39,124 nucleotides of DNA, taken from the NCBI GenBank assembly GCA_016934515.1, contig JAFGSR010000238.1, positions 1-39,124 on the forward strand. The letters run 5' to 3'. The DNA is from Sedimentisphaerales bacterium. GTDB lineage: Bacteria; Planctomycetota; Phycisphaerae; Sedimentisphaerales; SM23-30. The notes under the pieces are model-generated. The model saw nothing but the letters and a program-made list of their open reading frames with translations, searched no databases and was not told the DNA's origin. Shown here piece by piece: positions 1 through 15,593 of the stretch. Position numbers and translations under genes: made by a program. Numbering within the stretch: position 1 is the stretch's first letter; each line of letters opens with the position of its first letter.

Positions 1-757
1 AGCGTGTCAAAAGCGCGACAAAAGTGGGCCGAAAATGAGAAAAGATGAAATTTTGTCAAAAAACAGGGTCGAAAGTTGGGTGGTTTTGGGGTGGTTTTTG
101 AAGAAAGTTGGGGCAAAGTTATCGGTTTTTTGCAGAAACTTGCGATTTTTGAAAAAGGCTTGTCGCGCTTTTGGCCCGGTTGATTAGCCACGGAGAATTT
201 ACGTAAACCTTTATGGAACCGCAGATTAACGCCGATTTACGCAGATTTTTATAAAATTATATCCTACTGTTCTGGTGGGGATTGAAATTATAGGTTTTGG
301 GCCTACCGAAGAGATGTTGAATTCTCACCGTGCTCACGCCAGCTTGCCATGTTTTGCAAGTCGAAGCAGGTTGCGAAAGCTGTTTTTTAAAATTAGCTTC
401 GTCACCGGTGATACCGTAATTATACTTTTTGATATTAAATTTATGGTTTATACCGGTTTATCCGGATTAGGTATTAGTGAAATTCAGCCTGGGAAAAGCA
501 TAGTTAAATGATAGGAAATAATAAAATATCGGTATTGACGGGGTGGGGGACGGGGAATTATAATTGGAATATCTTGAATTGCAACGGGAAGAATGTAACT
601 TTGTCAGAGATGAATATTATTTTTTTCTGTATTGAAATATAAGAAGATAAGAAAGAACAATATATAATGTAATATAGCCGGGAAGTCTCTGCCCGGCCTA
701 CATGGCTGAAGCGGCTAAAATCTTTAACTATGAAGGTCAGATTAATTCGATCAGAGG
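1..757. other. Intergenic region with short interspersed repeats
   Basis: No convincing gene is seen. The frame beginning at base 2 is open to a stop at 184-186 and could be the end of a gene cut by the window, but it is low in complexity and unrecognised. A perfect 13-bp inverted repeat (CAAAAGCGCGACA) lies at 8-20 and 161-173. Around 220-250 there is a degenerate copy of the interspersed word CGCAGATTAACGC. At 677-697 a GCCGGG/CCCGGC hairpin is followed by CTACA, a design repeated elsewhere in this window. A TATAAT word at 663-668 could be a -10 box for the next gene, but no matching -35 box is placed correctly. Confidence 0.6.
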
Positions 758-1822
758 GTGATTGTGAAAAAGGCGAAGCGTAAGGGAACTGATCCGGTTA
801 GATTGGCGAAGCGTAGGCGGCGGCGAAAGATTCGGCGTTGTATTCTGCTGATTTTGCTGGTGATATTTTGCGGGTTGTTGATTAATCCGATTCGGACGTT
901 ATCCACCCTGGAGAAGGTTGATGATTATCCTTTGTATGTTATGAGTTATAAGGGGGGCTATGATTATTTGGGTGTGGTTCATGATTTTTACGGGGCAATA
1001 TTTGGAGTGGAGAGCGGCAAAGGTGATAAGGATGGTAAAAAACCGGAGGCGTGCAGTCTATTTGCTGCGTACGGTGATTTAAGTCGGCCGATATACGGGA
1101 GGAATCTGGATTGGAGTTACAGTCCTTTGCTGGTGCTTTATACGAATCCGACCGGTGGTTATGCTTCGCTTTCACTGGTTGATATTGCGTATCTGGGAAT
1201 TGGTAAGACGGAGGATTCGGAATTGCCGGATTGGGGCAAAAGATTTCGTTTGCTGGCAACGCCCGGATTGCCGTTCGAAGGGATAAACGAGCATGGATTG
1301 ACGGTTACGATTGCTTTGGTGCCTGATCTGGACTTGAAGGCGGATCCACAAAAAGAAACGCTGCATTCGCTGGCGGCGTTGCGTATGATGTTGGATAATA
1401 CCCGGACGACCCAGCAGGCGATTGAGTTTCTTGAGAATTATAACATTAATTTCAGGCCCGGGCCGACGGTGCATTATCTGATAGCTGATGCCCAGGGGGA
1501 CAGAGCTTTGGTTGAGTATGTGGAGGAGGGGATGAAGGTGATTCGATCGGAAGAGCTTTATCTGGTGGCTACGAATTTTTATCTGAATGGAGCAGGTGAA
1601 GATTTAAAGTCAAAATGTTGGCGGTATTCAACTGCCAGGAAGATGCTGGAAGAGAGAGAGGGCAAGGTGACTGATAGTCAGGCAATGGAGATTCTGGAAA
1701 AGGTTTCGGTTGGCGGGACGGTTTGGTCGGTAGTGTATGATCTTCAACAGAGAAAGGTGCATATTGTTTTAGCTAGAAATTATGACAAAGTGCACACTTT
1801 TGTGTTGGATGATTTTGATTGA
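758..1822 (+). CDS. Membrane-anchored choloylglycine hydrolase / penicillin acylase-like Ntn hydrolase
   Basis: This 354-residue protein resembles the linear-amide C-N hydrolase branch of the Ntn hydrolases (bile-salt hydrolase, penicillin V acylase, acyl-transferase type). Seen in the sequence: a very basic N-terminus (residues 4-27, many K/R), one hydrophobic helix at about 28-43, then the presumed nucleophile Cys99 (EACSLFAAYGD) followed by GRNLDW at 114-119, the spacing typical of the family, and a GINEHGLTVT motif. Known families free the Cys as a new N-terminus by removing what precedes it. Here that piece would contain the membrane anchor, so the mature enzyme could be released or stay attached. 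Translation could start at GTG 758 or, better spaced from the GAGG upstream, GTG 764. The substrate cannot be told; quorum-signal or other N-acyl amides are possible. Confidence 0.75.
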   Translation: MIVKKAKRKGTDPVRLAKRRRRRKIRRCILLILLVIFCGLLINPIRTLSTLEKVDDYPLYVMSYKGGYDYLGVVHDFYGAIFGVESGKGDKDGKKPEACSLFAAYGDLSRPIYGRNLDWSYSPLLVLYTNPTGGYASLSLVDIAYLGIGKTEDSELPDWGKRFRLLATPGLPFEGINEHGLTVTIALVPDLDLKADPQKETLHSLAALRMMLDNTRTTQQAIEFLENYNINFRPGPTVHYLIADAQGDRALVEYVEEGMKVIRSEELYLVATNFYLNGAGEDLKSKCWRYSTARKMLEEREGKVTDSQAMEILEKVSVGGTVWSVVYDLQQRKVHIVLARNYDKVHTFVLDDFD

Positions 1823-2022
1823 AATTCTGATACGTTATTGTCGGCGTGGCTGGGGGATGAAGGATTAATATTCGTTGCAGGATGCCGGCAAGATGCCGGC
1901 GGTACGGGGGAAAGCATGGGCTGAAGCCCGTCCTACAATTTTAATCATGGGCAAGATGCCCATGCCATCTCAGATAATCAAGGGCAAGATGCCCATGCCA
2001 CCTCAAGGGCGGGGGAGTTGGG
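1823..2022. repeat. Cluster of palindromic GC-rich interspersed repeats between convergent genes
   Basis: The gap between two convergent genes contains several short palindromic units: GATGCCGGCAAGATGCCGGC at 1881-1900, GGGCTGAAGCCC followed by CCTACAA around 1918-1936, and GGGCAAGATGCCCATGCC twice, near 1949-1966 and 1982-1999. Each can fold into a small hairpin. They resemble REP-like elements. By position they could also end transcription from both sides, although no T-run follows them. Confidence 0.65.
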
Positions 2023-2787
2023 TTATTTATATTTGATGAAGGTGAGGAGGGTGGGGCTGTAGGTTTGGAAGAGTTGTTGGGGGGAGAGGTTGTCGTCGGA
2101 GCGGGGGAATTCTAGGGTGATGATGGGGATGTTCAGGGTGTTGCCGGCGTAGGAGCCTAGAGAGCCTGGTCGGCTGCCGAGTTTTTTTATGGGGAGGTTG
2201 CATTGCATAGCCATTTGTTCGGCTAGATGTTGGGCGGGGCCGTCGTAGTCGATGCAATTTAGAGGTTGGTGGATGGTGACGATGCGCGAGGGGTGGTACT
2301 GGTCGATGAGTTGATAGAGTGCGGTGGACTCGGGTTCGGAGAGGGCGGATTGGCCGAATTTTTTGGTGTTGCGGCGGTTGTCGGCGGGGAAGTTGCGGTT
2401 GAGGTCGATGCCGCGGCTGTTGAAGCGGCGGTTGTGGGCGACGCCGTCGGGATTGGCGACGGGGACAATAACCAGTTGTCGTCCGGCGAGCAGATGGGCA
2501 TTTTGAGGTTGCTGAAGATGTTCGATGAGTTGGAGCAGCAGGGGGGTGCCGGCTTGTTCGTTGCCGTGGATGGTAGCCATGATGAGGCAGGTGTTGGGGC
2601 CGTGGCCGAGGAGGAGGTAAGTGATGGGGCGATTCTCGACGGAATAGCCAAAAATGTGCTCCTGGGGTGAAAGTGGGGGTGTTAAACGGGTGACGGGGGT
2701 GACTTTTATGTTTTGAGGTTGGGGGGAGCGGCAGCCAACGAGAACAAGAGCGAGCAGTAGAGCCAGGTGAAGAGGAAGTCGATTCAT
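2023..2787 (-). CDS. M14-family zinc carboxypeptidase lipoprotein (MpaA-like murein peptide amidase)
   Basis: A 254-residue protein with a lipoprotein signal peptide (hydrophobic residues 8-17, lipobox LVGC, Cys19). The M14 metallopeptidase pattern is complete: zinc ligands His74 and Glu77 in HGNE, the substrate-binding NPDG...N-R stretch with GIDLNRNFP at 126-134, third zinc ligand His173 (TIHQP), and the catalytic Glu226 in TLEFPR. The compact size and motif order match MpaA-type enzymes, which split the D-Glu/meso-diaminopimelate bond in murein peptides. Because this protein is a lipoprotein it would act in the periplasm, whereas E. coli MpaA is cytoplasmic. The plus strand here is extremely G-rich, so the coding strand is C-rich, unlike the neighbouring plus-strand genes. 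Confidence 0.85.
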   Translation of the reverse strand: MNRLPLHLALLLALVLVGCRSPQPQNIKVTPVTRLTPPLSPQEHIFGYSVENRPITYLLLGHGPNTCLIMATIHGNEQAGTPLLLQLIEHLQQPQNAHLLAGRQLVIVPVANPDGVAHNRRFNSRGIDLNRNFPADNRRNTKKFGQSALSEPESTALYQLIDQYHPSRIVTIHQPLNCIDYDGPAQHLAEQMAMQCNLPIKKLGSRPGSLGSYAGNTLNIPIITLEFPRSDDNLSPQQLFQTYSPTLLTFIKYK

Positions 2788-2831
2788 GATTGTTTTCCTA
2801 AAAGAGTACCATTATCGTTGCCAAGTCAATG

Positions 2832-2860
2832 ATAATACTGCATTTACAATGACCAATCAA
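2832..2860 (-). promoter_or_regulatory. Candidate sigma-70-type promoter for the M14 lipoprotein gene
   Basis: Read on the minus strand, TTGATT (2855-2860) is followed after 17 bases by TATTAT (2832-2837). Transcription would begin near 2825, about 38 bases before the start codon. Predicted from consensus only. Confidence 0.4.
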
Positions 2861-3159
2861 GAGGCGGTTGGCAGGTGGAATCGAAATATGGTTATGTTTA
2901 GCCGGTTTTTTGATAGGGGAAAGGGGGAAAAGGGAAGAATTTTGAGGAGGATTTGACTTTGGTAAATTCAGGGTAATAATTGAATAGCAGAGCATGTGGA
3001 CGGGCTAGAAGGAGATTGCTGGTCGGTCCAAATGCGGCACATCTATTATTCATGTGTTGAGAGAGAATCGCGGAGCGGAGAAAGATGCATTTCGCTATGT
3101 AACCTTCATTAGACACAGTCGGTCAGGGTTAGTGTTTGTCTGAAAGGAGGCGCCTATTG

Positions 3160-3195
3160 ATGATAATGCGAGTGCCTAAACGGAGTGTGACATAA
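3160..3195 (+). other. Possible 11-codon leader ORF with strong Shine-Dalgarno site
   Basis: AAAGGAGG at 3143-3150, an excellent anti-16S match, stands nine bases before an ATG opening an 11-residue frame (MIMRVPKRSVT) that ends in TAA at 3193-3195. It lies 100 bases upstream of the PEP-CTERM gene on the same strand. It could be a leader peptide or the remains of a lost gene start. Its coding status cannot be tested from one sequence. Confidence 0.25.
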
Positions 3196-3295
3196 GCCAG
3201 GGAAGGTAGAAGGAGTTGTTTGCTACGGGTGGTCTGTGGTGTAGGAAAGCATGTGTAAATGTAATAAGAAAAGTATATCTATAAAGGAGAATATG

Positions 3296-4084
3296 ATGAA
3301 AAAGACACTATTAACCATGGTATGTGTAATGTTGGTAAGTTCAGTGGTTTGGGCGGACTGGAAACCTGAAGACGGGCACAAGATGCATTTTCCGCAGTTG
3401 CCGGATCCACAGGGATGGGATGTTTTTGCGGGGACAAATGAAGACAACACTCAGAAAGTTTTGGCAGACGACTGGATGTGCAGCGAGAGCGGTCCGGTGA
3501 GAGACATTCATCTGTGGGGATCGTGGAAGGACGATATTCAAGGTGTAATAGACAGTGTACATGTGAGTATTCACAAGAATATTCCGGCCGGGGAGGATGA
3601 CAATATGCCCTGGAGTCATCCGGGTGAGTTATTGTGGGAGCGAGATTTTGCTGGGACAGAGATCAGGGTAATTGATCCGTGGGGTACCGGTAACCAAGGC
3701 TGGTACAATCCGAATACGGGAGATGTATTTGAGGATGATCATTTTAGTTTCCACCAGATAAATATTATGAATATAGACGATCCCTATTATCAGGTGTATG
3801 AGACGATTTACTGGCTGGATATTACGGTCAAGTCGCATGGTGATATAGGTACTATTCCCCCGGAGTGGGGATGGAAGACCTCCCAGGATCACTGGGAAGA
3901 CGATGCGGTGTGGGGTGATTCTAACGCTGCCGGTGGAGTAGATTTCTGGAACGAGTTGCGGAATCCAATCAATACTGCCGAATCGCTGGATATGGCGTTT
4001 GTGATTGTTCCGGAGCCGGCGACGATGGGGTTGCTGGTGCTGGGCGGATTGAGTTTGTTATATCGTCGGAAGAAAAACTTTTGA
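3296..4084 (+). CDS. PEP-CTERM sorting-domain protein (DUF7901-like ectodomain)
   Basis: The protein is exported by Sec and probably processed by an exosortase. The chosen start, ATG 3296, sits six bases after AAGGAG. Upstream in-frame starts at 3251 and 3293 are possible but give a worse signal peptide or spacing. Signal peptide: MKK, hydrophobic LLTMVCVMLVSSVVWA, then mature DWKPEDG. The Trp/Asp-rich body (LADDWMCSESGPVRDIHLWGS, split by the motif VHVSIHKNIPA and a SHPGELLWERDF stretch) resembles a planctomycete family known to me as DUF7901; I cannot confirm that by search. The C-terminus is a textbook PEP-CTERM tail: VPEPATMGLLVLGG, a hydrophobic segment, then YRRKKNF. No exosortase gene is in this window. 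A hairpin terminator follows. Confidence 0.85.
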   Translation: MKKTLLTMVCVMLVSSVVWADWKPEDGHKMHFPQLPDPQGWDVFAGTNEDNTQKVLADDWMCSESGPVRDIHLWGSWKDDIQGVIDSVHVSIHKNIPAGEDDNMPWSHPGELLWERDFAGTEIRVIDPWGTGNQGWYNPNTGDVFEDDHFSFHQINIMNIDDPYYQVYETIYWLDITVKSHGDIGTIPPEWGWKTSQDHWEDDAVWGDSNAAGGVDFWNELRNPINTAESLDMAFVIVPEPATMGLLVLGGLSLLYRRKKNF

Positions 4085-4132
4085 AAAATGTTGTTGAAAT
4101 GTATTTTGAACTGCAATGAATGAGAGGTGATT

Positions 4133-4172
4133 GGGGCCAATCAAAGGTGTCCGTTGATCTTTGGTTGGCCCC
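4133..4172 (+). terminator. Hairpin after the PEP-CTERM gene
   Basis: Arms GGGGCCAATCAAAG (4133-4146) and CTTTGGTTGGCCCC (4159-4172) pair over 14 positions with one G-U wobble and a 12-base loop, 48 bases after the stop. There is no clean T-run after it (GGTTAATT), so it may be an imperfect terminator or an RNA 3'-end protector. Confidence 0.5.
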
Positions 4173-4199
4173 GGTTAATTCAGAGGGGGGGCTTTTATG

Positions 4200-4228
4200 T
4201 TGACAAGTTGTGGCTGGATTACTAGTCT
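4200..4228 (+). promoter_or_regulatory. Candidate promoter for the symporter-folP pair
   Basis: A perfect TTGACA at 4200-4205 is followed after 17 bases by TAGTCT at 4223-4228, a weak -10 box. The predicted start of transcription would be near 4235, some 60 bases before the symporter ATG. Confidence 0.4.
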
Positions 4229-4297
4229 CTATTAGATTAGTTGCGTCTTCAAGAGTTTTCCGGTTCAGGGGACTTTGCTTTATCTGGAGCGTTCGTG

Positions 4298-6091
4298 ATG
4301 AGTTATCTGTTGGTGATATTTTTTTATCTGTTAGTTTTGGCGGGGATCGGGATTTATAAATCTCGACAGGTGAAGACGCAGGAAGATTTTTCGGTGGCGG
4401 GTCGGACGCTGTCGCCGTGGATTATGGTTTGTACGATGCTGGCGGTGTGGATTGGTACGGGGTCCATTGTGGGGAACGCGGGGCAGGCGTTTCGGGACGG
4501 GGCGGCGGCGTTGGTTTTGCCGATGGGGACTTTTTTGGGGATGATTTTGCTGAGTTTTATTGCGCCGCGGGCGCGGAATATTCAGGCTACGTCGGTTCCG
4601 GAAATTATTGGTGAGCGGTTTGGTCATACGGCGCGGATGCTGGCGGTGATATCTCTGATTATCGCGTACATGGTGATTGTCAGTTATCAGTTCAACGCGG
4701 GGGGGATGGTTTTGGAGGTGATTGCGGGGAAAAAAGCACCGGTGGAGCTGGCGGCGGGCAGCGAGCTGAGCAGTTGGCAGGTGGAGAAGGGGTATGTGGA
4801 ATTTTATCCTGATGAGGACTGGCAGGGGACGGCGAAGATTGGATTCAATGTTTATGAGGAGGGGGGCTGGTCGAGGGGGGAGGAGATTTTTGGGGTGGAA
4901 GTGATTTCGGCGGCGGAGAAGGCTGGTCGTGATGTGGCAGGTGGTGGGGAAGCGGTGCGGAATTTTGTTACGATTAAAGAAAATAATGTAGCGAAAATTG
5001 TAATCGGAGGATTTGTTGGTGCGCCAGATGAACAGGGGAATTTGTATCGGATAGCGGCGGTTCCGGAGCAGGGCAGGTTGGTGCTGGCGGAGCCGAAGTT
5101 GACGGCGCAAAAGGCGACGGTGATAGCGGCGGTTTTTATAATAATGTACACGATGCTGGCGGGTTTGATGTCGCTGGCGTTTGCGGACATTGTGACGGGG
5201 GTGGTAATCACGGCGATGCTGATTATCGGGTTTCCGATTTTGCTGGTCAAGGCGGGCGGATTTGCGGGGATGAGCGAGGCTTATGCGGCGATGGCGGACC
5301 GGCCGCGGCACATGGAATTTTGGGGAGTGTATGATGCGACGAAGGTGGTGAATTATTGTTTGCCGGTGTTTTTGTTGATTATGGGTGACGCGAATATGTA
5401 TCAGCGGATTTTTGCGGGTAAGAATGCGCGGGGAGCCAAGGCGGCGGTTACGATATTGATTTTTCTGGCGTTGGCGGTGGAGTTGTTGATTATCGGGGAG
5501 GCGTGGATAGCGGGGAGCATGATTTCGGATCCGGAGAATGGTCGTTATGTTTTGATATATGCGGCCCGACATTTTATGCCGCGGGCAATAGGTTGTTTGT
5601 TTATGGCGATGGTGGTGGGAATTATCATTTCGACGGCGGATTCGTTTTTGCTGGTGCCGGCGACGACGTTTATCAAGGACGTTTACCAGCAGTATATCAA
5701 TCCGCAAGCGGGGGATAAAAGGGTGGTGTTTTTCAGTCGAATGCTGGTTTTAGTGTTTGGGGTGATTGCTTATTTGATTTCTCTGGCGTTTGCCGAATCG
5801 ACGACGGTGTTTGAGAAGGCACTATACGCGTTTACGGTGTATGGTTCGGCGATTACGCCGTGTCTGGTGGCGGCATTGTTCTGGAAGGGGGCTACGCGGG
5901 CCGGGGCGATATCGTCGATTCTTTCGGGTACGGTGGTGACGCTGTTATGGTCGGAATTGCCGATGGTTCAGAGTTTGCCGGGCAGCATAGCGGAACTGGA
6001 TGCGGTTTTGCCGGCGATCAGCTGTTCGGTGGCATGTTTGATAGTTGTGAGTCTGTTGACGAAAAAGCGGGCGAATCCGGGTGAAGGATAA
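4298..6091 (+). CDS. Sodium:solute symporter (SSS family) with a periplasmic cadherin-like insert
   Basis: A 597-residue transporter of the SSS/SLC5 type. Helix 1 (MSYLLVIFFYLLVLAGIGIY) is followed by the usual cytoplasmic K/R loop and GR.L (VAGRTLSPW). Further helices include WIGTGSIVGNAGQAFRDG and the conserved YTMLAGLMSLAFADIVTG. The start at ATG 4298 is preceded by GGAG nine bases away. The frame extends upstream to TTG 4241, but that adds a non-hydrophobic tail. Residues about 144-271 form a ~125-residue insert between TM4 and TM5, where relatives have only a short loop. By SSS topology it lies in the periplasm. It contains VEFYPDEDWQGTAKIGFNVYE and IAAVPEQGRLVL, which look like cadherin/tandem-95 (Big_9-like) strands. 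Substrate unknown. Gene folP follows after 14 bases. Confidence 0.85.
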   Translation: MSYLLVIFFYLLVLAGIGIYKSRQVKTQEDFSVAGRTLSPWIMVCTMLAVWIGTGSIVGNAGQAFRDGAAALVLPMGTFLGMILLSFIAPRARNIQATSVPEIIGERFGHTARMLAVISLIIAYMVIVSYQFNAGGMVLEVIAGKKAPVELAAGSELSSWQVEKGYVEFYPDEDWQGTAKIGFNVYEEGGWSRGEEIFGVEVISAAEKAGRDVAGGGEAVRNFVTIKENNVAKIVIGGFVGAPDEQGNLYRIAAVPEQGRLVLAEPKLTAQKATVIAAVFIIMYTMLAGLMSLAFADIVTGVVITAMLIIGFPILLVKAGGFAGMSEAYAAMADRPRHMEFWGVYDATKVVNYCLPVFLLIMGDANMYQRIFAGKNARGAKAAVTILIFLALAVELLIIGEAWIAGSMISDPENGRYVLIYAARHFMPRAIGCLFMAMVVGIIISTADSFLLVPATTFIKDVYQQYINPQAGDKRVVFFSRMLVLVFGVIAYLISLAFAESTTVFEKALYAFTVYGSAITPCLVAALFWKGATRAGAISSILSGTVVTLLWSELPMVQSLPGSIAELDAVLPAISCSVACLIVVSLLTKKRANPGEG

Positions 6092-6105
6092 TTTTGGAAA
6101 TTCAT

Positions 6106-6963
6106 ATGTTGCAAAATCGGAAAAAATATCAATTAAACTGTTGTGGTCGGATGCTGGATTTGGGAGGGCGGCCGTTGATAATGGGGATTCTGAACGTTAC
6201 GCCGGATTCGTTCAGTGACGGTGGTCGGTATTTGGAGGCGGCGGAAGCGGTTGAGCATGGTTTGAGGATGGTGGGGGAGGGTGCGGCGATAATAGATGTG
6301 GGAGGTGAATCGACGCGGCCGGGATCGGAAGCGGTTGGAGCGGAAGAGCAGGTCAGGCGGGTGGTTCCGGTGATTGAAGGATTGGTGCGGCAAACGCAGG
6401 TTCCGGTGAGTATCGACACGAGAAGTGCGGCGGTAGCGAAGGCGGCGTTCGAAGCGGGGGCGACAATTGTTAATGATATTTCGGCGTTGCGATTTGATGC
6501 GGAGATGGCTGGGTTTGCGGCGCGGAATGAGCTGGCGGTTATTTTAATGCACATGCAGGGTAGTCCCGGAGATATGCAGCGAAAGCCGCGATATGATGAT
6601 GTGGTTGGGGAGGTGAAGGGATTTTTGGCGGAGCGGATCGATTATGCGGTGGGGGCGGGAATCGGCGGTGATCGGTTGGTGGTGGATCCGGGGATTGGTT
6701 TTGGCAAGACGGTGGAGCACAATTTGTTGCTTTTGAAGAGACTAGCTGAATTTGGTGAGCTTGGTGTTCCGGTGCTGATCGGGCCGAGCAGGAAATCGTT
6801 TATCGGTAAGGTGCTGGGTCTGGAGGATCCGGGGGAGCGGTTGTTCGGGACGGCAGCAGTGGTGGCGATGTCGGCGGTTCTGGGGGCTCAGATCATTCGG
6901 GTTCACGATGTTGGGGAGATGTCTCAGGTGGTCAAGCTGGCCTGGGCGATAAGTCAAAGCTAA
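6106..6963 (+). CDS. folP: Dihydropteroate synthase
   Basis: Joins 4-aminobenzoate to 6-hydroxymethyl-7,8-dihydropterin diphosphate in folate synthesis, in the cytoplasm. All family motifs are present in order: MGILNVTPDSFSDGG (26-40), DVGGESTRPGS (64-74), SIDTRSA (102-108), a VNDISA strand, DPGIGFGKT, GPSRKSFIG and RVHDV near the C-terminus. Length of 285 residues is normal. ATG 6106 is preferred over TTG 6094. The gene follows the symporter by 14 bases and is presumably co-transcribed. Its stop codon is followed immediately by a TGACGAATGACGAA repeat. Confidence 0.97.
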   Translation: MLQNRKKYQLNCCGRMLDLGGRPLIMGILNVTPDSFSDGGRYLEAAEAVEHGLRMVGEGAAIIDVGGESTRPGSEAVGAEEQVRRVVPVIEGLVRQTQVPVSIDTRSAAVAKAAFEAGATIVNDISALRFDAEMAGFAARNELAVILMHMQGSPGDMQRKPRYDDVVGEVKGFLAERIDYAVGAGIGGDRLVVDPGIGFGKTVEHNLLLLKRLAEFGELGVPVLIGPSRKSFIGKVLGLEDPGERLFGTAAVVAMSAVLGAQIIRVHDVGEMSQVVKLAWAISQS

Positions 6964-7307
6964 ATGACGAATGACGAAGCCTGACCCGGCTTCGCCAAAC
7001 TGCCGCGACGGGCGCGAGCACGGCGGGAACGCTTCGCCGCGGCAAGATGACGAATCAATTACGAATAACGAATGACGAAAAATAGCTACGTGGGTAGCAA
7101 GTTACCCATTCTACAAGTCAACAAGTCTATTTGCGGGCGCATAATTATTGGACCTTCGGCCAGGTAAGTGGTAAGAATGTGTCTATTTATGCTTATTGTA
7201 TCAGTTATGCTGAATAAGCGGATGGTGGGGAATGGGTAAAGTGTTTGTGTTCTAGCGAACAGGGAAGAAATAGTTATTGGATAAAATAAGTAATTCAGGT
7301 GAACCGG
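6964..7307. repeat. folP-pilM gap: composite TGACGAA repeat array and CTACAAG palindrome
   Basis: Copies of a 7-base unit TGACGAA start right at the folP stop (6964-6978) and recur at about 7047-7080. Between them is a GC-rich block (CCCGGCTTCGCC...CTTCGCCGCGGCAAGATGACG) that reappears, shortened, in the pilN-pilO gap. A near-perfect palindrome, TGGGTAGC/AA/GTTACCCA, stands at 7091-7108 and is followed by CTACAAG. The rest (about 7120-7307) shows nothing recognised. Confidence 0.7.
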
Positions 7308-7336
7308 TTGCCATGGGTGGTTGTGTATTTTATGTT
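7308..7336 (+). promoter_or_regulatory. Candidate promoter of the type IV pilus operon
   Basis: TTGCCA (7308-7313; five of six bases match TTGACA) is followed after 17 bases by TATGTT (7331-7336; four of six match TATAAT). This would give a ~100-base untranslated leader before pilM. The bases from here to the pilM start (7337-7445) hold no other recognised feature. Confidence 0.35.
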
Positions 7337-7445
7337 TTGAATGGAGATTTAAAGGTTGTAGTCCGGATAATCCAGTGACATATGGTCCGGAGAAGAGAGA
7401 ACGTTAATAAGGTTAGTATGAGGGGTGATTGGAGGCTTCAGCGTA

Positions 7446-8657
7446 ATGCTGGGTTTATTGAGACAAAAAGTGCATCCGATTGGGGTGGATCTCGGTGCGG
7501 GCAGTTTGAAGATGCTGCAATTGAGCGGTTCCAGAGAGCGTTTATCTCTGTTAGCGGCGGCACAGATGGAAGTTCCGGTTGAAATACATGGAAATCCGCC
7601 GGCATTTCAGGAGTGGTACATCGAGACGGTACGGGAGTTGCTGGCGACACGGAAATTCAAGGGCAATCGAGTGATAAGTTGTTTGCCGGCGCGGGAGATG
7701 CTGGTGCAACATATGCGGATGGCGAAGATGGAAGAGAAGCATCTGGAAAAAACACTGCCCTTTGAAGCGCAAGGAAAGGTGCCGTTCGATATTCATCGGG
7801 CCCGATTACGTCATGTGATTGCGGGGGAGGTTTATGACGGTTCGGAGACGAAGCTGGAAATTATTTTGATGGCGGCATCGAGTGCAGTGGTCAATCAGCA
7901 TTTGAATTTTTTGGAAAGATCTCGTTTGGAGATTGTTTCGATTGGTGTTGAGCCCTGTGCGTTGGTGAATTGTTTTAAACATCTGCTGGACCGCGACGAA
8001 GCGAACAAGAGCGGGACGATGTTTTTGGATTTGGGATACAGCGTTACCAAGGTAGTGATAACACACGGGCCGAGCATGGTGTTTTGCCGGACGTTGGGAA
8101 TTGGTGCCGATCAACTTTTGCGGATGCTGCGCGAGAAAATGAAAGTGGATTATCCCCAAGCGGCGGGTCAGTTGCGGAATTTGAACCAGCAGGAGTTGGA
8201 AGCAGATTGCGCTGTTGTACAGTTGGGTCAAAATCAGTCTGGGGAATCTGTTGCAACCGGTGAGGCGGCCTCGGCGGCGGAAGGTGAAGCAGTGGGATGT
8301 TCGGCGGCGGCATGTGGAACAATGGTTGAAAAGCAGGAGGAGAAATGCAATCCTGGCCAGGCGATAAAGCCGACGCTAGATACTTTGTGTAAGGATATTC
8401 GCGGTTGTGTGAGCTATCATGACATGATGTTCAATTCGTGTCCGGTGGGTCGGGTGATTTTCCTGGGGGGCCAAGCCAAGAATAAGGTGCTTAGTCAGTA
8501 TCTGGCAAAAAGTATTGGACTGCCGGCGCAGTTGGGAGATCCATTTGGCAGAGTGGTGAAGGATTCTCTATACGGCAAACATAGTGATCTGGTTCCGGAT
8601 GAACTGCATGGTGAGTGGGCGGTGGCGTTTGGTTTAAGTGTTGGCAAGATAGATTGA
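7446..8657 (+). CDS. pilM: Type IV pilus assembly protein PilM
   Basis: An actin-like ATPase of the pilus inner-membrane complex, located in the cytoplasm, where it normally binds the N-terminal tail of PilN. Actin-fold motifs: PIGVDLGAGSLKMLQL (11-26), MFLDLGYSVTKVVI (192-205) and VIFLGGQAKN (337-346). Start ATG 7446 follows GGAGG by ten bases; an upstream GTG at 7425 is in frame but less likely. At 403 residues it is longer than most PilM proteins. Residues 262-305 are a low-complexity Gln/Ala/Gly/Glu stretch with scattered Cys that looks like a flexible insert. First gene of a ten-gene pilus operon. Confidence 0.93.
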   Translation: MLGLLRQKVHPIGVDLGAGSLKMLQLSGSRERLSLLAAAQMEVPVEIHGNPPAFQEWYIETVRELLATRKFKGNRVISCLPAREMLVQHMRMAKMEEKHLEKTLPFEAQGKVPFDIHRARLRHVIAGEVYDGSETKLEIILMAASSAVVNQHLNFLERSRLEIVSIGVEPCALVNCFKHLLDRDEANKSGTMFLDLGYSVTKVVITHGPSMVFCRTLGIGADQLLRMLREKMKVDYPQAAGQLRNLNQQELEADCAVVQLGQNQSGESVATGEAASAAEGEAVGCSAAACGTMVEKQEEKCNPGQAIKPTLDTLCKDIRGCVSYHDMMFNSCPVGRVIFLGGQAKNKVLSQYLAKSIGLPAQLGDPFGRVVKDSLYGKHSDLVPDELHGEWAVAFGLSVGKID

Positions 8658-8787
8658 TAATGACGAATGACGAAAACAGAATGACGAATCAATGACGAAT
8701 GACGAAGTGCAAAAAATTAATCAATAACGAATGACGAATGATGTTGCGGAGCGACGCGGCATTTTAGAGAAGAAAAATGGAGCGGTT
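8658..8787. repeat. pilM-pilN gap: TGACGAA repeat array
   Basis: From the pilM stop to about 8742 the gap is made largely of TGACGAA units, often paired as AATGACGAATGACGAA and interrupted by variant AATCAATGACG and AATCAATAACG words. The units contain ATG and so open spurious upstream frames into pilN (for example from 8731). They should not be taken as the start of the gene. Confidence 0.75.
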
Positions 8788-9513
8788 ATGAATAAGGTAG
8801 ATTTTTTACCGGAAGATTATATCGAGAAGAAAGCCCAGCAGCGAACGAATGTGATATGTCTGATGCTATTTCTGGTGGTTATGTTGGGAGTGGGTGGAGG
8901 ATTTGCGATAACCGAAAAGCGAAAAAAGGGGATGGATGATCGTATTGCGCAGGTCAACAAGCAGATGAAACAGGTGAGTGAATCGCTGAAGCAGTTGGAA
9001 GTGTTGGAAGGCAAGCGAGAGCAGATGATGAACAAGGCATCGTTGAGTGCGTCGTTGATGGAGTCGGTTCCGCGGTCGTTGATATTAGCGACGGTTACGA
9101 ATGATTTGCCGGCAGGAGTGTCGTTGACGGAATTTGAGTTATCCAGCAAGGATATAACACCCCAGCCGGAGGTTCAAACGAAAAAGACCAGCAAATCGCG
9201 TAGTAAAAACAGTAAAAGTAAGTCGGTCCAAAAGGATGCTGAACCGGAGAATACAAAAATTATTCCCCAGAAGTGGCAAACGGTTGTGGAAGTTACCGGC
9301 CTGGCCCCTACGGACATCCAGGTGGCGGAGTTGATCGAGAATCTGCAGGCTTCGAAATTGATAAAGGAAGCCAATCTAATGTATTCGGAAGAGCACGAAG
9401 GCGAAGATGAAATTATACGACATTTTCAGTTGCTGCTGACTCTGGACCCGGAAGCCCGGGCCAGTGAGGAAGATGTGGAGATGGCGCGTTCTATCGGCGT
9501 AAAGGGGATGTAA
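8788..9513 (+). CDS. pilN: Type IV pilus assembly protein PilN
   Basis: A bitopic inner-membrane protein that links PilM to PilO. The conserved cytoplasmic tail MNKVDFLPEDYIEKK opens the protein and corresponds to the INFLPxY-type PilM-binding motif. One membrane helix follows at about 21-41, then a coiled-coil region (residues about 50-80), a Lys/Ser-rich low-complexity linker around 130-150, and a C-terminal ferredoxin-like part (VVEVTGLAPTDIQVAELIENL). Start ATG 8788 has GGAG six bases upstream. An earlier in-frame ATG lies in the repeat array and is rejected. Confidence 0.9.
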   Translation: MNKVDFLPEDYIEKKAQQRTNVICLMLFLVVMLGVGGGFAITEKRKKGMDDRIAQVNKQMKQVSESLKQLEVLEGKREQMMNKASLSASLMESVPRSLILATVTNDLPAGVSLTEFELSSKDITPQPEVQTKKTSKSRSKNSKSKSVQKDAEPENTKIIPQKWQTVVEVTGLAPTDIQVAELIENLQASKLIKEANLMYSEEHEGEDEIIRHFQLLLTLDPEARASEEDVEMARSIGVKGM

Positions 9514-9518
9514 AGTGT

Positions 9519-9543
9519 TCAAACTGACCGATGGCCAGTTTGA
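9519..9543. repeat. Palindrome, copy A (after pilN stop)
   Basis: Arms TCAAACTGACC (9519-9529) and GGCCAGTTTGA (9533-9543) flank GAT. One position is mismatched. It starts six bases after the pilN stop and is followed by AATGACGAATAACGAA. The same palindrome occurs after pilO and pilC. Confidence 0.9.
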
Positions 9544-9708
9544 GAATGACGAATAACGAAATTCGACCCGGCTTCGCGATAGCTTCGCCGCGGCAAGATG
9601 ACGAATCAATGACGAAATCCGAATGATGAAAAAACCGCGTGGGCAACAAGTTGCCCAATCTAAAAGAATACAGGATCATTAATCGTATAAAGAAAAGGGA
9701 ACTATAAG
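9544..9708. repeat. pilN-pilO gap: TGACGAA words, GC-rich block and TGGGCAAC palindrome
   Basis: After palindrome A come TGACGAATAACGAA, a short form of the folP-pilM GC-rich block (CGACCCGGCTTCGC...CTTCGCCGCGGCAAGATGACG, about 9563-9603), further TGACGAA words, and a perfect palindrome TGGGCAAC/AA/GTTGCCCA at 9640-9657 followed by CTAAAAG. The last ~40 bases lead to pilO. Confidence 0.7.
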
Positions 9709-10266
9709 ATGAAATTTGGAGTACGGGAATTATTATTTGTGGTTTTGTTGCTGGCGATACCTACGGGGGCATATTTTTGGATTTTCAAGCCTGCCAATGA
9801 GAATGTGGAACGACAGCGACAGGAGATCGAGGCGAAATCCCAGAAGCTGGCCAGTTTGCAGAAAGCACTGGTGGGTATCAAGGATCTGAATGAGGAAGTT
9901 GTGAAGCTACAGGAAGCGGTTGGTTTTTTTGAGGCGAAACTACCCAAGCAGCACGAAATTCACCGGGTTTTGGAACAGGTGACCAAAGTGGTCGAGCAGC
10001 AGCGACTGGAAACCAAGCTGTTCAAGACCCTCAAGGCGAAGTGTTGTTCGGGCTATTCCGAGCAACCTATCAGGCTGGAGGTGTCGGGGAATTTTAATTC
10101 GTTTTACGAGTTTATGCTGGAGTTGGAGAAATTACCGCGAATCACCAAGTTTCGGGTGATGCATCTTGAAAAAGACAAAGAGAACGAGGGTATGATGAAC
10201 GCGGAACTGGAGCTGAGTATTTATTTTGACAGCTCAGTTAAATCGTCGTTGGTTGCGCGAGGTTAG
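9709..10266 (+). CDS. pilO: Type IV pilus assembly protein PilO
   Basis: An inner-membrane protein forming heterodimers with PilN. Short cytoplasmic tail (MKFGVRE), one membrane helix at about 7-27, a long coiled coil (residues about 30-95, ERQRQEIEAKSQKLASLQKAL) and a C-terminal ferredoxin-like domain with the typical IRLEVSGNFNSFYEFMLELE strand-helix (PilO signature of a V.G.Y..l..Fl..l type). Size (185 residues) is usual for PilO. Ribosome site AAAGGGAAC lies upstream. The stop is followed after six bases by palindrome copy B. Confidence 0.9.
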   Translation: MKFGVRELLFVVLLLAIPTGAYFWIFKPANENVERQRQEIEAKSQKLASLQKALVGIKDLNEEVVKLQEAVGFFEAKLPKQHEIHRVLEQVTKVVEQQRLETKLFKTLKAKCCSGYSEQPIRLEVSGNFNSFYEFMLELEKLPRITKFRVMHLEKDKENEGMMNAELELSIYFDSSVKSSLVARG

Positions 10267-10272
10267 CAACAA

Positions 10273-10299
10273 CTCAAACTGACCGATGGTCAGTTTGAG
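10273..10299. repeat. Palindrome, copy B (after pilO stop)
   Basis: Perfect 12-base arms, CTCAAACTGACC (10273-10284) and GGTCAGTTTGAG (10288-10299), around GAT. It begins six bases after the pilO stop and runs into AATGACGAATGACGAA. Confidence 0.95.
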
Positions 10300-10556
10300 A
10301 ATGACGAATGACGAAGCTCGAATGACGATTTAATGACGACACGGAGCGAAGCGGAGAGCCCGGCACGGAAATGCGAATGACGAATATTTCAGAAATTCTA
10401 AATCCTAATATCTTAATCCTAAACAAATTCAATTTACAAATGTTAAAATTCAAAACGGTTACGAGCGTTTAGCAATAACCGCGTGGGTAACAAGTGACCC
10501 ACCCTACAAGGCTAGAAAATATTGTTAGTGATATGCAGAGAGGATGAAAACAGAAA
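10300..10556. repeat. pilO-pilP gap: stacked interspersed repeats
   Basis: Following palindrome B are TGACGAA words (to about 10385), then an AT-rich segment built on AAATCCTAATATCTTAATCC (about 10398-10417) that looks like another interspersed family, then TGGGTAAC/AA/GTGACCCA with CCTACAAGG (10484-10510). The pilP-like gene follows, with GAGAGGATG upstream of its start. Confidence 0.65.
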
Positions 10557-11246
10557 ATGAGCAGTGAATACGATCAATATGAAAGCGGGACGGATCAGGG
10601 GCAGGCTTATGAAAACGAGCAGTGGTCAGGAGCTGACGTTAGTGCCAGTGAGATGGCGGCGGCGGAATCGGCTGAGCAGCAATATAGGGTGGCGAATAAG
10701 AATAATGTCAATCGCAGTGCGGTGATTTTGCTGATGACCTGTTTAATGGGGGTGGGAGCGATATATTTGTTTGGGCTGCGTAACAAACCCAAGGAAGCGA
10801 CTGCCCAGGAGCAGGAAGTGGAAGCGAAGGTTGATCAGGTGTTAGCTAAACTGGTTGACCAGCAGAAAAAGGATGAAGCGCGTAAGATGTTTCAGGACAC
10901 CGATAATATGGTTCAGGTGTTTTACGATTATCCTGCTAAACAGCAGGTTGAAGTTGAGGAGTTGCAGCGAAATCCGTTTTCGCGGATGTTAGCTAAGGAC
11001 GAAGGTGCTAATGATGTGGATGAGGCGCTCAAGCGTCGTGAACAGTTGCGAATCGAGCTTAGTGAGAAATCGGCTAAATTTGTTTTGCAATCAGTGTTGC
11101 AGGGCAAGAAGGGTGCTAAATGTTTGATTGACGGAAACATATATAGTGAAGGGGATCTCATCGACAGTGTTTTCAAGGTCAAAAAAGTTAATAATGAAAG
11201 TGTAATATTGACAGCGGAAGAGATGGATTTTGTGGTGCAGATGTAG
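10557..11246 (+). CDS. PilP-like type IV pilus assembly protein
   Basis: A 229-residue protein in the pilP position of the operon. Residues 1-53 are acidic/polar and cytoplasmic, residues 54-73 form one membrane helix (SAVILLMTCLMGVGAIYLFG), and a charged, coiled-coil-prone periplasmic stretch follows. The C-terminal ~55 residues (LQSVLQGKKGAKCLIDGNIY...GDLIDSVFKVKKV...VILTAEEMDFVV) match the short beta-domain shared by PilP and GspC (HR domain), which contacts the secretin. PilP is usually a lipoprotein; here a GspC-like bitopic anchor is present, so it may be a PilP/GspC hybrid. No pilQ gene follows. Confidence 0.7.
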   Translation: MSSEYDQYESGTDQGQAYENEQWSGADVSASEMAAAESAEQQYRVANKNNVNRSAVILLMTCLMGVGAIYLFGLRNKPKEATAQEQEVEAKVDQVLAKLVDQQKKDEARKMFQDTDNMVQVFYDYPAKQQVEVEELQRNPFSRMLAKDEGANDVDEALKRREQLRIELSEKSAKFVLQSVLQGKKGAKCLIDGNIYSEGDLIDSVFKVKKVNNESVILTAEEMDFVVQM

Positions 11247-11279
11247 AAGCGTGAGAACGCGGTTCCAGGTAAAAAATTA

Positions 11280-13127
11280 ATGCAAAAAAATATGGTAAAT
11301 AGTACCGAGCTGGATGACAGCATCGCTCAATTTAATGATCCCAAAGGGTCAGAATTTGGCGTCGATATCGGTTTAGAGTGCGCCGGTAAGGAAGTGAGCG
11401 ATTTTTGGCAGCCGGACGAAAAACAGTTGTCCGGTAGTGGGTCCTATGAAGAAAAACTCTTCAAAAGCGGCATGGTCAGCGAAGAGCAGATGGAGCAGGC
11501 TCGCAGTATTCACAGCAAAACTCCGCGTAAGCGACTAGGTCAGGTGCTTTTGGAAATGGGAGTTGTCAAGGAAGCGGACCTGCTGGCCTGTTTGGCGGAG
11601 CAGTACGAACTGCCATTTATTCGTTTGGAACGGGATATGGTTGAGCCGGCGGCTTTTCGTAAGCTGGACAAGGGCTTTATGGAAAGTCATAAGGTTATGC
11701 CCGTTGGTTTGGAAGGAAATCGACTGGTACTGGCGACGACGGATCCGACGAATGTGTTTTTGCTGGATGAAATCAGGCGTAAAACCGGCATGGAATTATC
11801 CGTAAAGGTTTGCCCCTGGGAGGACATCAAAAGTGTGTTGTCGTCGCTGACCGAAACCACTACGGATTTTCAGGTTGATGAAATTATCTCGAACATCGAA
11901 GCAGAAGATTTGGAAGTGGTTGGTGACGAGGAGGAAGATATTGCCGATCTGGAAAAATCGGCTGCTGAATCGCCAATTATCAAGTTTGTAAATTATCTTA
12001 TCTATAATGCGGTCAAGGACGGTGCGAGCGATATTCACATTGAGCCGGGCGACAAGAAGCTGCGTATTCGTTATCGAGTTGACGGAGTTCTGTTTGAAAC
12101 GGTGAATCCGCCCCATAACATGCACGCACCGGTGGTATCGCGAATCAAGATCATGGCCAATCTGGATATTGCTGAGCGTCGATTGCCGCAGGACGGTCGA
12201 ATTCGTGTGGTTATTCATGGTCGCAATATTGACATGCGAATTTCGGTATTGCCCACTTCGTACGGCGAAAAGGTAGTTATTCGTATTCTGGATATGGGTA
12301 CGTCCAAGATGAACCTTACGGATTTAGGTATGGATCCGGATAACCTGGCAATCATGGAGCATCAGATCAGCCAGCCCCACGGTATTATTCTGGTTACCGG
12401 GCCGACCGGTTCGGGTAAAAGTACAACCCTGTACGCGGCATTGCGGAATATGGATATGCAACGGTTGAACATTTCAACGGTTGAAGATCCGGTCGAGTAT
12501 CAAATCAATGGAATATCACAGGTTCAGGTTTACGACAAGATCGGTATGAGTTTTTCGGCGGCGTTACGATCGCTGCTGCGGCAGGATCCGGATGTTATCA
12601 TGGTGGGTGAGATACGTGATCCGGAAACCGCCCGGATTGCGATTCAGGCATCGCTTACGGGGCACATGGTGCTATCGACGCTGCATACCAACGATGCGCC
12701 CAGCAGCATTACGCGGTTAATCAATATAGGTGTGGAATCGTATTTGATAGCGGCTTCGACGAATGCGGTGCTGGCGCAGCGGCTGGTGCGGCGGATGTGT
12801 CAGCATTGTAAGCAGCCTTACCAGGTGGAAGCTGAAGCGGCGGGATTTATCGAGATGTACGGCTTCAATCTGGAGAATCTATATAAGGGTCAGGGGTGTG
12901 AGAAGTGTAGGTTTACCGGTTTTCAGGGGCGAGTGGGTATTCATGAACTGCTGGTAATTGATGACTCTTATCGTGACATTATCACAAGCAGCCCGACGGT
13001 AACGGAATTGCGCCGGCTTTGTAAGGAACGGGGCATGGTTACGCTGCGAGAAGACGGTTTTCGGAAAGTTCAGTCAGGATTGACGACTATAGATGAGGTT
13101 ATGCGGGTGACGGAGTGCACTGTCTAA
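11280..13127 (+). CDS. pilB: PilB/GspE-type assembly ATPase
   Basis: The hexameric motor that drives pilus extension. Domains in order: a unique acidic N-terminus (1-55), a GspE N-terminal (MshEN-like) domain at about 56-190, a linker, then the NTPase. Walker A GPTGSGKST is at 374-382, the Asp box STVEDPVEY at 399-407, Walker B region LLRQDPDVIMVGEIRD at 432-447, and the His box LTGHMVLSTLHTND at 459-472. Four Cys (507, 510, 540, 543: CQHC, CEKC) form the tetracysteine zinc motif of PilB/GspE extension ATPases, separating it from the retraction motor PilT that follows. Normal length (615). Start ATG 11280 is 33 bases after the PilP-like gene. Confidence 0.93.
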   Translation: MQKNMVNSTELDDSIAQFNDPKGSEFGVDIGLECAGKEVSDFWQPDEKQLSGSGSYEEKLFKSGMVSEEQMEQARSIHSKTPRKRLGQVLLEMGVVKEADLLACLAEQYELPFIRLERDMVEPAAFRKLDKGFMESHKVMPVGLEGNRLVLATTDPTNVFLLDEIRRKTGMELSVKVCPWEDIKSVLSSLTETTTDFQVDEIISNIEAEDLEVVGDEEEDIADLEKSAAESPIIKFVNYLIYNAVKDGASDIHIEPGDKKLRIRYRVDGVLFETVNPPHNMHAPVVSRIKIMANLDIAERRLPQDGRIRVVIHGRNIDMRISVLPTSYGEKVVIRILDMGTSKMNLTDLGMDPDNLAIMEHQISQPHGIILVTGPTGSGKSTTLYAALRNMDMQRLNISTVEDPVEYQINGISQVQVYDKIGMSFSAALRSLLRQDPDVIMVGEIRDPETARIAIQASLTGHMVLSTLHTNDAPSSITRLINIGVESYLIAASTNAVLAQRLVRRMCQHCKQPYQVEAEAAGFIEMYGFNLENLYKGQGCEKCRFTGFQGRVGIHELLVIDDSYRDIITSSPTVTELRRLCKERGMVTLREDGFRKVQSGLTTIDEVMRVTECTV

Positions 13128-13224
13128 ACGGCAACGAGAAGAGAAAGAAATAAGTTTTATAACAAATTATTGAGTTAACGGGAAAAATTTAAGGCAGCCA
13201 AATTGTTGGTGCAAGGAGAATAAG

Positions 13225-14283
13225 GTGTCACAGTTACAGGAATTATTAACAACGGCTTTGAATTGCGGTGCGAGTGACGTGCATATTATGGTGGGTTCGC
13301 CGCCGTTGCTGCGGGTTCATACCGTTTTGCAGGAAACTGATTATCCTGTGGTAACCGTCGAAGGGGCTGAAGCAATGGTACGCGAGTTGCTTCCGGAGCA
13401 TCGGGTCAGGGATTTTATGGAGAGGCGGGATATTGATTTTTCAGCTGAGGTGTCGGGCAAAGGGCGTTTTCGTGTTAATGCTCACTTTCAGCGGGGCAGT
13501 ATCGGTATTGCGTTTCGCGGCATTCCGGAAGAAGTGCTGCCTTTGGAAAAGCTGAATCTGCCCCGGGCGGTATTCAATATAGTGGACATGACACGTGGAT
13601 TGGTGTTGGTTACAGGGGACACCGGTTCGGGTAAGAGTACTACGATGGCTAGTGTTATCAACTCTATGAACCAGAAATATCGTAAGCACATTATTACTCT
13701 TGAGGATCCGATCGAGTACATGCTCACGAGCAATAAATGTGCTATCGAACAGCGTGAAATCGGGGATGACTGTCCCACTTTTGCGTCTGGTCTTAAGCAT
13801 GCTTTGCGTCAGGACCCGGATGTTATTCTGGTTGGTGAAATGCGAGATCTGGAAACATCATCGGCGGCGATTACGGCGGCGGAGACCGGCCACCTGGTGT
13901 TGAGTACTTTGCACACGATTAACGCTCCGCAGACCATCGAGCGTATTATCGATATTTATCCCACGGGTCAGCAGAACCAGATTCGTTCGATGTTGGCGAA
14001 CACGCTCAAAGGGGTAATCAGTCAGACGCTGCTCAAGCGGACGGACACTCCGGGAATGATACCGGCAATTGAAGTGATGCTCTGTACCTCGGCGGTGCGG
14101 AACTGTATTCGAGAAAACCGAATTTATGAATTGCCGAATGTGATTGAAACTTCGCGGGCGTTGGGTATGCAAAGTCTGGACACCAGCATCGGCCAATTGT
14201 ATTTCAACGGTCAGATTTCTCGGGAAGACGCTCTGGCCCATGCGGCGCAACCGGAAAAACTCGAACGTGCCTTATCGGCATAG
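13225..14283 (+). CDS. pilT: Twitching motility retraction ATPase PilT
   Basis: The hexameric motor for pilus disassembly. It starts with GTG 13225 behind AAGGAG. The N-terminal PAS-like domain has GASDVHIMVG (15-24) and the core has Walker A GDTGSGKST at 131-139, ITLEDPIEY (157-165), ALRQDPDVILVGEMRD (193-208) and ETGHLVLSTLHT (220-231). The C-terminal signature AVRNCIRENR (290-299) corresponds to the AIRNLIRE motif required for retraction in PilT. The protein has no zinc tetracysteine. Length 352. Its presence indicates a retractable pilus able to support twitching, adhesion or DNA uptake. Confidence 0.95.
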   Translation: MSQLQELLTTALNCGASDVHIMVGSPPLLRVHTVLQETDYPVVTVEGAEAMVRELLPEHRVRDFMERRDIDFSAEVSGKGRFRVNAHFQRGSIGIAFRGIPEEVLPLEKLNLPRAVFNIVDMTRGLVLVTGDTGSGKSTTMASVINSMNQKYRKHIITLEDPIEYMLTSNKCAIEQREIGDDCPTFASGLKHALRQDPDVILVGEMRDLETSSAAITAAETGHLVLSTLHTINAPQTIERIIDIYPTGQQNQIRSMLANTLKGVISQTLLKRTDTPGMIPAIEVMLCTSAVRNCIRENRIYELPNVIETSRALGMQSLDTSIGQLYFNGQISREDALAHAAQPEKLERALSA

Positions 14284-14369
14284 AGCAAAATAATTTATGA
14301 GGATTAAATCAAGCAGAATAGAAACTTCAGGGAAAAACAAAACCAGAATAACTGGTATGGGAAGAGGCT

Positions 14370-15593
14370 ATGCCTAACTATCGTTATGAATTAAAATCGG
14401 CTTCGGGGCAGATTAACGCGGGAGTTATCGCGGCGGACTCAATCACCGCGGCGACGCAGATGCTGCGTAGTCAGGGAAGTTACATTCTTTCGTTGGCGGC
14501 GGTGGCGCAAAGTCAGGGTGGCGGTTTGCAAAAGCTGTTGTCATTCAACGTGCAAACCGGGCCGTCGGCAAAAGACGTTATGAACTTTACCAGCCAACTG
14601 GCGGTGATGATCAAGGCCGGTATCAGTATTCGAGCCGCTCTGGAAGGGATTTGTGATCAGGTAGATAATGTTAAGTTTCGGGACATTCTGCAGCAGATCA
14701 AGCGTGACGTTGAAGCGGGTAAGACGTTTTCGGAAGCGTTGGCACGTTTTCCGAAAGTGTTCAGTCCGCTGTATGTCAATATGGTTCGGGCATCGGAGTT
14801 ATCCGGTTCGTTCGGAGGGATGCTGGAACGAGTAGCTGAGTACCTTACTCAGCAGCATGAAACCCGCGCACAGGTCCGGGCGGCGATGATTTATCCAATT
14901 ATCATTGGTGTGATGGCGGTGAGCACTACGGTGTTTCTGCTTACCTTTGTATTGCCGAAATTTGTCGTGCTTTTTGAGGGCAAAGAAGCTGCTATGCCCA
15001 TGCCTACCAAGGTAGTTTTGGCCAGCAGTTATGTGATGCGTACCTACTGGTATATTATTCTGGCAGTGGTGGTGGGATTGATCTGGATGTTTTTCTGGGC
15101 GATTAACACCGATTGGGGGCGGGCACGCTGGGATCAAGTAAAACTCAAAATGCCCATTTTTAAGAAATTGTGTCGGTGTCTTTACATTTCCCGGAGTATG
15201 CACACCATGGGAGAATTGGTGAACGCTGGTGTACCGATGCTGGATACGATTAGTATTACGGCCAATATTTCGGGCAACACGCTTTATAAGCGGATGTGGC
15301 TTCAGGTTTACGTAGCGGTTAAGCAGGGTAAGAAAATCGCACAACCTCTGCAGCGTAGTCCGCTACTGCCGCGTAGTGTGGTTCAGATGATCGGCAGCGG
15401 CGAAGAAAGCGGTAAGCTTGCCGAAGTGCTAAGTGACATCAGTGAGTTTTATCAAAAGGAGTTGAAAAACGTTGTTCGTACGGTAACGGCCATGATCGAG
15501 CCTTTGATGATTGTGGTTATGGGTGCTCTGGTGGGCTTTATCGCTATGAGTATTATTCTGCCGATATTCAAACTTTCCAGTCTGGTTAAGTAA
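14370..15593 (+). CDS. pilC: Type IV pilus inner-membrane platform protein PilC (GspF family)
   Basis: A polytopic membrane protein on which PilB and PilT act. An N-terminal beta segment (MPNYRYELKSASGQ) precedes two copies of the T2SSF domain. The first has MNFTSQLAVMIKAGISIRAALEG, split as FTSQLAVMIKAG and RAALEG, and GKTFSEAL. The second has LVNAGVPMLDTI and GEESGKLAEVL. Membrane helices are at about 172-200, 222-245 and 375-400. Length 407 is typical. Its stop codon lies inside the 12-base duplicated target of a small inserted element that separates it from the next gene. Confidence 0.95.
   Translation: MPNYRYELKSASGQINAGVIAADSITAATQMLRSQGSYILSLAAVAQSQGGGLQKLLSFNVQTGPSAKDVMNFTSQLAVMIKAGISIRAALEGICDQVDNVKFRDILQQIKRDVEAGKTFSEALARFPKVFSPLYVNMVRASELSGSFGGMLERVAEYLTQQHETRAQVRAAMIYPIIIGVMAVSTTVFLLTFVLPKFVVLFEGKEAAMPMPTKVVLASSYVMRTYWYIILAVVVGLIWMFFWAINTDWGRARWDQVKLKMPIFKKLCRCLYISRSMHTMGELVNAGVPMLDTISITANISGNTLYKRMWLQVYVAVKQGKKIAQPLQRSPLLPRSVVQMIGSGEESGKLAEVLSDISEFYQKELKNVVRTVTAMIEPLMIVVMGALVGFIAMSIILPIFKLSSLVK

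Follow-up and report, generated by a model that had tools for sequence, protein, structure and literature searches.

A circularly permuted cadherin-like domain in a loop of a sodium:solute symporter from Sedimentisphaerales

The gene at positions 4298-6091 (forward strand) of the window, as we call the whole 39,124-nucleotide stretch of Sedimentisphaerales DNA analysed here, encodes a sodium:solute symporter (SSS) of 597 amino acids with 128 extra residues between transmembrane helices TM4 and TM5 (residues 144-271; 4727-5110, forward strand). This insert is, with little doubt, a cadherin-like domain whose two halves stand in swapped order, i.e., a circular permutant. It is optional among orthologs, and the genes found next to the carrier in relatives tie it to the use of hydroxyproline or prolyl peptides; both points go beyond the first-pass annotation, which had proposed a cadherin/tandem-95-like insert of about 125 residues in this loop.

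The open reading frame is free of stops throughout and its translation matches the SSF family (PF00474) with an E-value of 3.9e-37, at 128.5 bits over a cut-off of 22.8. The match is split in two, covering profile positions 1-117 and 121-406; the break falls exactly at the insert and three profile positions are missing. The two segments of the transport core are TM1-TM4 (residues 1-142; 4298-4723, forward strand) and TM5 to the C-terminus (residues 272-597; 5111-6088, forward strand). A full-length AF2 model, built with a 23-row alignment (mean pLDDT 77), combines the SSS helices with an all-beta insert; compared with CHT1 it gives a Z-score of 38.5 and an rmsd of 3.7 over 467 aligned residues, which points to a LeuT-type core fold, and its matches to CHT1, NIS and SiaT lie at Z 33-38. 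S445 and T446 are invariant in the 23-row alignment and presumably correspond to S340 and T341 of PutP, the Ser/Thr pair of the Na2 site; the carrier is probably Na+-coupled. The PutP equivalog (TIGR02121) scored 150.4 bits on this protein, below its cut-off of 515.5. The C-terminus is basic, as judged by charge counts, and under the topology that we take to be that of SSS carriers (N-terminus outside, C-terminus inside) the TM4-TM5 loop and its insert would lie on the outer face, where the first-pass annotation had placed them. This loop presumably occupies the position of the loop between TM3 and TM4 of LeuT. The source genome holds 27 PF00474 matches, and within it the insert profile matches the gene at 4298-6091 only. 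Three further long SSS proteins encoded there (L189, L190 and L191; contigs C15, C22 and C3 of G000) also split the SSF profile; their extra residues are of different sequence and sit in other loops, and the insert profile matches none of them.

The insert is predicted to be a folded beta domain. In the full model it is all beta apart from two helices, a short one at residues 159-163 and one in the hinge at 205-214, and when it was predicted alone the mean pLDDT was 77.5, with most strands at about 80-90; disorder or extra membrane helices, either of which would have spoken against the original reading, are ruled out by the strand prediction. Two parts can be distinguished, residues 147-203 (4736-4906) and residues 219-271 (4952-5110), joined by a hinge at residues 204-218 (4907-4951; all on the forward strand). 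The hinge has a pLDDT below 50 at residues 213-220 of the full model and is the seat of most of the length variation of the insert among relatives; in one of these (L058, 5938-7962) it is expanded into a long, charged and possibly helical stretch. At the junction with TM5, residues E265, P266, L268 and T269 are invariant or nearly so in the alignment, and each end of the insert has a stretch that closes with a leucine-threonine pair.

The stronger evidence for the permutation is the order in which the two parts match natural repeats. The native-order profile of the insert picked out a repeat protein, L143, in which the match to its second part directly precedes that to its first; at L091, the locus of an APC amino-acid permease, this profile also matches as two pieces in swapped order. 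Swapping the halves of the profile turned both into one-piece matches, of 41.1 bits in L143 and 33.7 bits in L091. When all cut points were tried in steps of five, the score was maximal with the cut at the hinge (41.1 bits for L143; 33.7 bits for L091, with 34.0 bits one step off) and minimal with the cut within the strand motif DEDWQG (15.9 and 8.8 bits, respectively); a first rotation scan, in which TM residues and the hinge were kept, was uninformative, as the local alignment caught one half alone. Aligned by hhalign to ten natural repeats, the half-swapped inserts matched over 101 of 109 columns (99.3%, E 1.4e-20) and the inserts in native order over 59, the first part falling on columns 49-107 of the natural repeat and thus being its second half, and the second part its first half; eight of the ten repeats had first been found with the swapped profile, so that this E-value is not independent of the swap, whereas the two from L143 are. 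Among 397 genomes of the class, the restored-order profile gave one-piece matches (profile start at or before 18, end at or after 106; rows counted by hand) in 34 of the 41 rows outside SSS frames, from eight genomes, and in none of the 49 rows that lie in frames of the SSS family, a group confirmed as the carrier family in 26 of its 27 genomes and assigned by length only in G320.

Both sequence strings that the first-pass annotation had quoted as strand signatures are present and are indeed cadherin-like; what it had missed is their order, the second half of the repeat preceding the first. Pfam matches to the inserts in native order were weak and confined to a minority of members (Cadherin_5 and Big_9 in 7 of 22 each, with best E-values of 0.0023 and 0.0034); the insert of the window itself, in native order, matched neither family, and swapping the halves brought a small gain, to 8 and 9 of 22, respectively. 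A sequence profile search of solved structures with the native-order insert gave no useful match; with the restored-order profile it returned a pilin backbone protein at a sequence E-value of 0.0028, with each matching stretch at 8.2, a weak match that was not used. Foldseek and VIA-align found no convincing cadherin-like structure for the insert model among the matches listed, the best of the VIA-align matches listed, none above Z 5.4, being beta domains of viral and carbohydrate-binding type; sequential aligners handle permuted folds badly. These structural and Pfam results can be cited for a coincidental order of the halves and an ordinary or unrelated beta domain, a reading we regard as extremely improbable in view of the swapped two-piece matches in L143 and L091, the peak of the rotation scan at the hinge, the confinement of one-piece matches to non-SSS frames and the 101 against 59 aligned columns.

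As the hinge sits at the would-be boundary of the natural repeat and the leucine-threonine stretch recurs at both ends, the insert appears to be a little over one period of a tandem array, captured out of phase. We propose that the starting point was a Na+-coupled SSS importer of the LeuT fold and that, in a single event early in the history of this planctomycete family, its outer TM4-TM5 loop gave way to roughly one period cut from a cadherin-like tandem repeat. The slice being out of phase, a circularly permuted beta domain would result, in which the old termini of the repeat are joined by the variable hinge and the new termini run into TM4 and TM5. The carrier would import trans-4-hydroxyproline, proline or small prolyl or hydroxyprolyl peptides, and the insert would act as an optional docking or anchoring module on the envelope side rather than as a substrate site. 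Taken as a whole this explanation seems to us reasonably probable; its last element, the docking role, is put forward only tentatively.

The same insert was sought, and found, in related genomes. A search of 59 genomes returned, in addition to the window, ten relatives with the insert and two without it (G042 and G047); a scan of genome contigs gave 25 loci, and 27 of 298 genomes of the class contain a gene that matches the carrier strongly, whether or not it has the insert. In an alignment of 50 family rows, which includes near-copies, the insert measures 112-186 residues in 39, and 11 have a loop of 7-29 residues instead. This distribution rules out a sequencing artefact and a usual SSS loop, the latter a caveat attached to the original proposal, and the insert is also absent from four outgroup SSS proteins. 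Members bearing the insert span several families and one other order, and within one genus a genome has it (G053) and another lacks it (G042). On a tree of the core columns of the 50 rows, the trait requires four changes. The simplest history is a single gain at the root of the family followed by three losses, or a later gain should the placement of the long-branched L019 be wrong. The insert design is ancestral to this carrier family of Sedimentisphaerales-type planctomycetes and was lost several times.

These losses, at least two to three on the tree, and the difference between G053 and G042 would also fit an insert that the carrier tolerates as a passenger, without any specific function other than doing it no harm, as would its faster evolution: over 11 pairs, which are not independent, dN/dS was 0.16-0.30 for the insert and 0.03-0.09 for the core, i.e., about two to seven times higher in the insert. 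Values of 0.16-0.30 nevertheless indicate selection at least for folding, and the insert has been kept in those 39 of 50 rows, near-copies included, across several families and a second order; we consider the passenger reading unlikely, if still worth weighing.

In relatives, the carrier lies beside genes for a HypD activase, a trans-4-hydroxyproline dehydratase (HypD; NF043068, 1209 bits over a cut-off of 1100), an ACE/M3-like peptidase that carries a lipobox-like signal (read by eye) and a prolidase that looks cytoplasmic; at L062, positions 698-9198 hold an operon of the activase, the dehydratase, the ACE-like lipoprotein peptidase, the carrier and the prolidase. HypD produces P5C from hydroxyproline (PMC7077986); a search of the main text of that paper for the word "transport" gave no match. 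Across the 39 distinct loci of the family (51 rows minus eight duplicates and four outgroups), many with flanks cut short, the prolidase was found in 32, the ACE-like lipoprotein in 25 and HypD in 18, and none of the three adjoins the carrier at the four outgroup loci. HypD exceeds the cut-off in 11 of 13 carrier-bearing genomes versus 10 of the 46 that lack the carrier (Fisher p 6e-5, a value that treats related genomes as independent). These neighbours make hydroxyproline, proline or a prolyl peptide the probable substrate of the family.

The copy in the window lies outside such an operon, flanked by folP and a PEP-CTERM gene with no HypD adjoining, and shares with the neighbourhoods of relatives nothing but the carrier itself; in its genome, which is 88% complete, neither a HypD match nor a close copy of the relatives' prolidase was found. 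The substrate assignment is for these reasons weakest here, and we would give it slightly less than an even chance for this copy. The gene directly upstream (3251-4084) encodes a DUF7901 protein with a PEP-CTERM sorting signal. Elsewhere in the window, positions 7425-15593 carry genes for PilM, PilO, two T2SSE-type ATPases and T2SSF, resembling type IV pilus or type II secretion systems, and 28514-32581 on the reverse strand encodes a protein of 1355 residues in which beta-helix, PEGA and Chlam_PMP matches were found.

None of these neighbours goes specifically with the insert, since loci without it keep them too: the prolidase, the ACE-like gene and HypD occur at 27, 21 and 13 of the 33 loci with the insert and at five, four and five of the six without it. 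That insert-free loci retain the ACE-like gene weakens the idea that docking to this peptidase is the sole role of the insert. The same retention of the operon counts against a role in substrate capture, whereby the insert would bind a nutrient or peptide outside and pass it to the carrier; this was one of two roles that the first-pass annotation had suggested, coupling of the carrier to the cell envelope being the other. Its outer location beside the vestibule, which we take from SSS topology, and the ACE-like lipoprotein of relatives, which could release peptides nearby, would suit such a role. However, 14 of the 26 insert positions that are nearly invariant are scaffold residues common to the natural repeats, which somewhat disfavours a dedicated ligand pocket, and the other 12 include several at the TM5 junction together with a few basic ones; the higher dN/dS of the insert relative to the core also argues against capture, which we hold to be improbable. 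Equally doubtful in our estimate is that the insert regulates or stabilises its own carrier, as a gating lid, a dimer contact or a protection against proteases, binding neither substrate nor partner; its position between TM4 and TM5, presumably that of the LeuT TM3-TM4 loop, and the nearly invariant E265, P266, L268 and T269 are consistent with this. We retain docking or anchoring as a working proposal for the role.

A second case came from the APC permease (L091, 931-2583; contig C66 of G002), in which an unpermuted cadherin-like domain is inserted between two helices, with Cadherin_3 (E 5.1e-8) and Big_9 (E 1.3e-5) both over their cut-offs. Its orthologs in the same order, for example at L192, are without the domain, and among the matches listed it was found in one of 148 genomes of the order, a single draft in which an assembly error is possible. 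It may be, though we think it rather improbable, that some planctomycetes turn pieces of surface-repeat arrays into docking modules for transporters, permuted in the SSS carrier and in phase in the APC permease, and so attach carriers to extracellular machinery for protein degradation.

A literature search for such a fusion, or for this carrier paired with HypD, returned nothing relevant among the entries listed. The insert would represent a natural example of one unit of a tandem repeat that was caught out of phase and so became a circular permutant within a membrane carrier. Orthologs with and without it beside the same genes make the role of extracytoplasmic loop domains on LeuT-fold carriers testable, and the carrier is a candidate for the importer that serves anaerobic hydroxyproline breakdown.

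With the SSS/SLC5 carriers (CHT1, SiaT, PutP and vSGLT; PF00474) the carrier of the window has its core fold and sequence family in common, and it differs from them by the folded domain of 128 residues between TM4 and TM5 and by a score below PutP level. The cadherin-like/Big_9 tandem repeats of large planctomycete surface proteins (PF16184, PF17963 and PF17892) are homologous to the insert over nearly the whole repeat once the order is restored; the insert, in contrast, is single-copy, has its halves swapped, lies within a membrane carrier and has lost the acidic D27 and D30 of the natural repeat. The APC permease of G002, a LeuT-fold carrier too, likewise bears a cadherin-like domain in one of its loops, but there the domain is unpermuted and lies between a different pair of helices.
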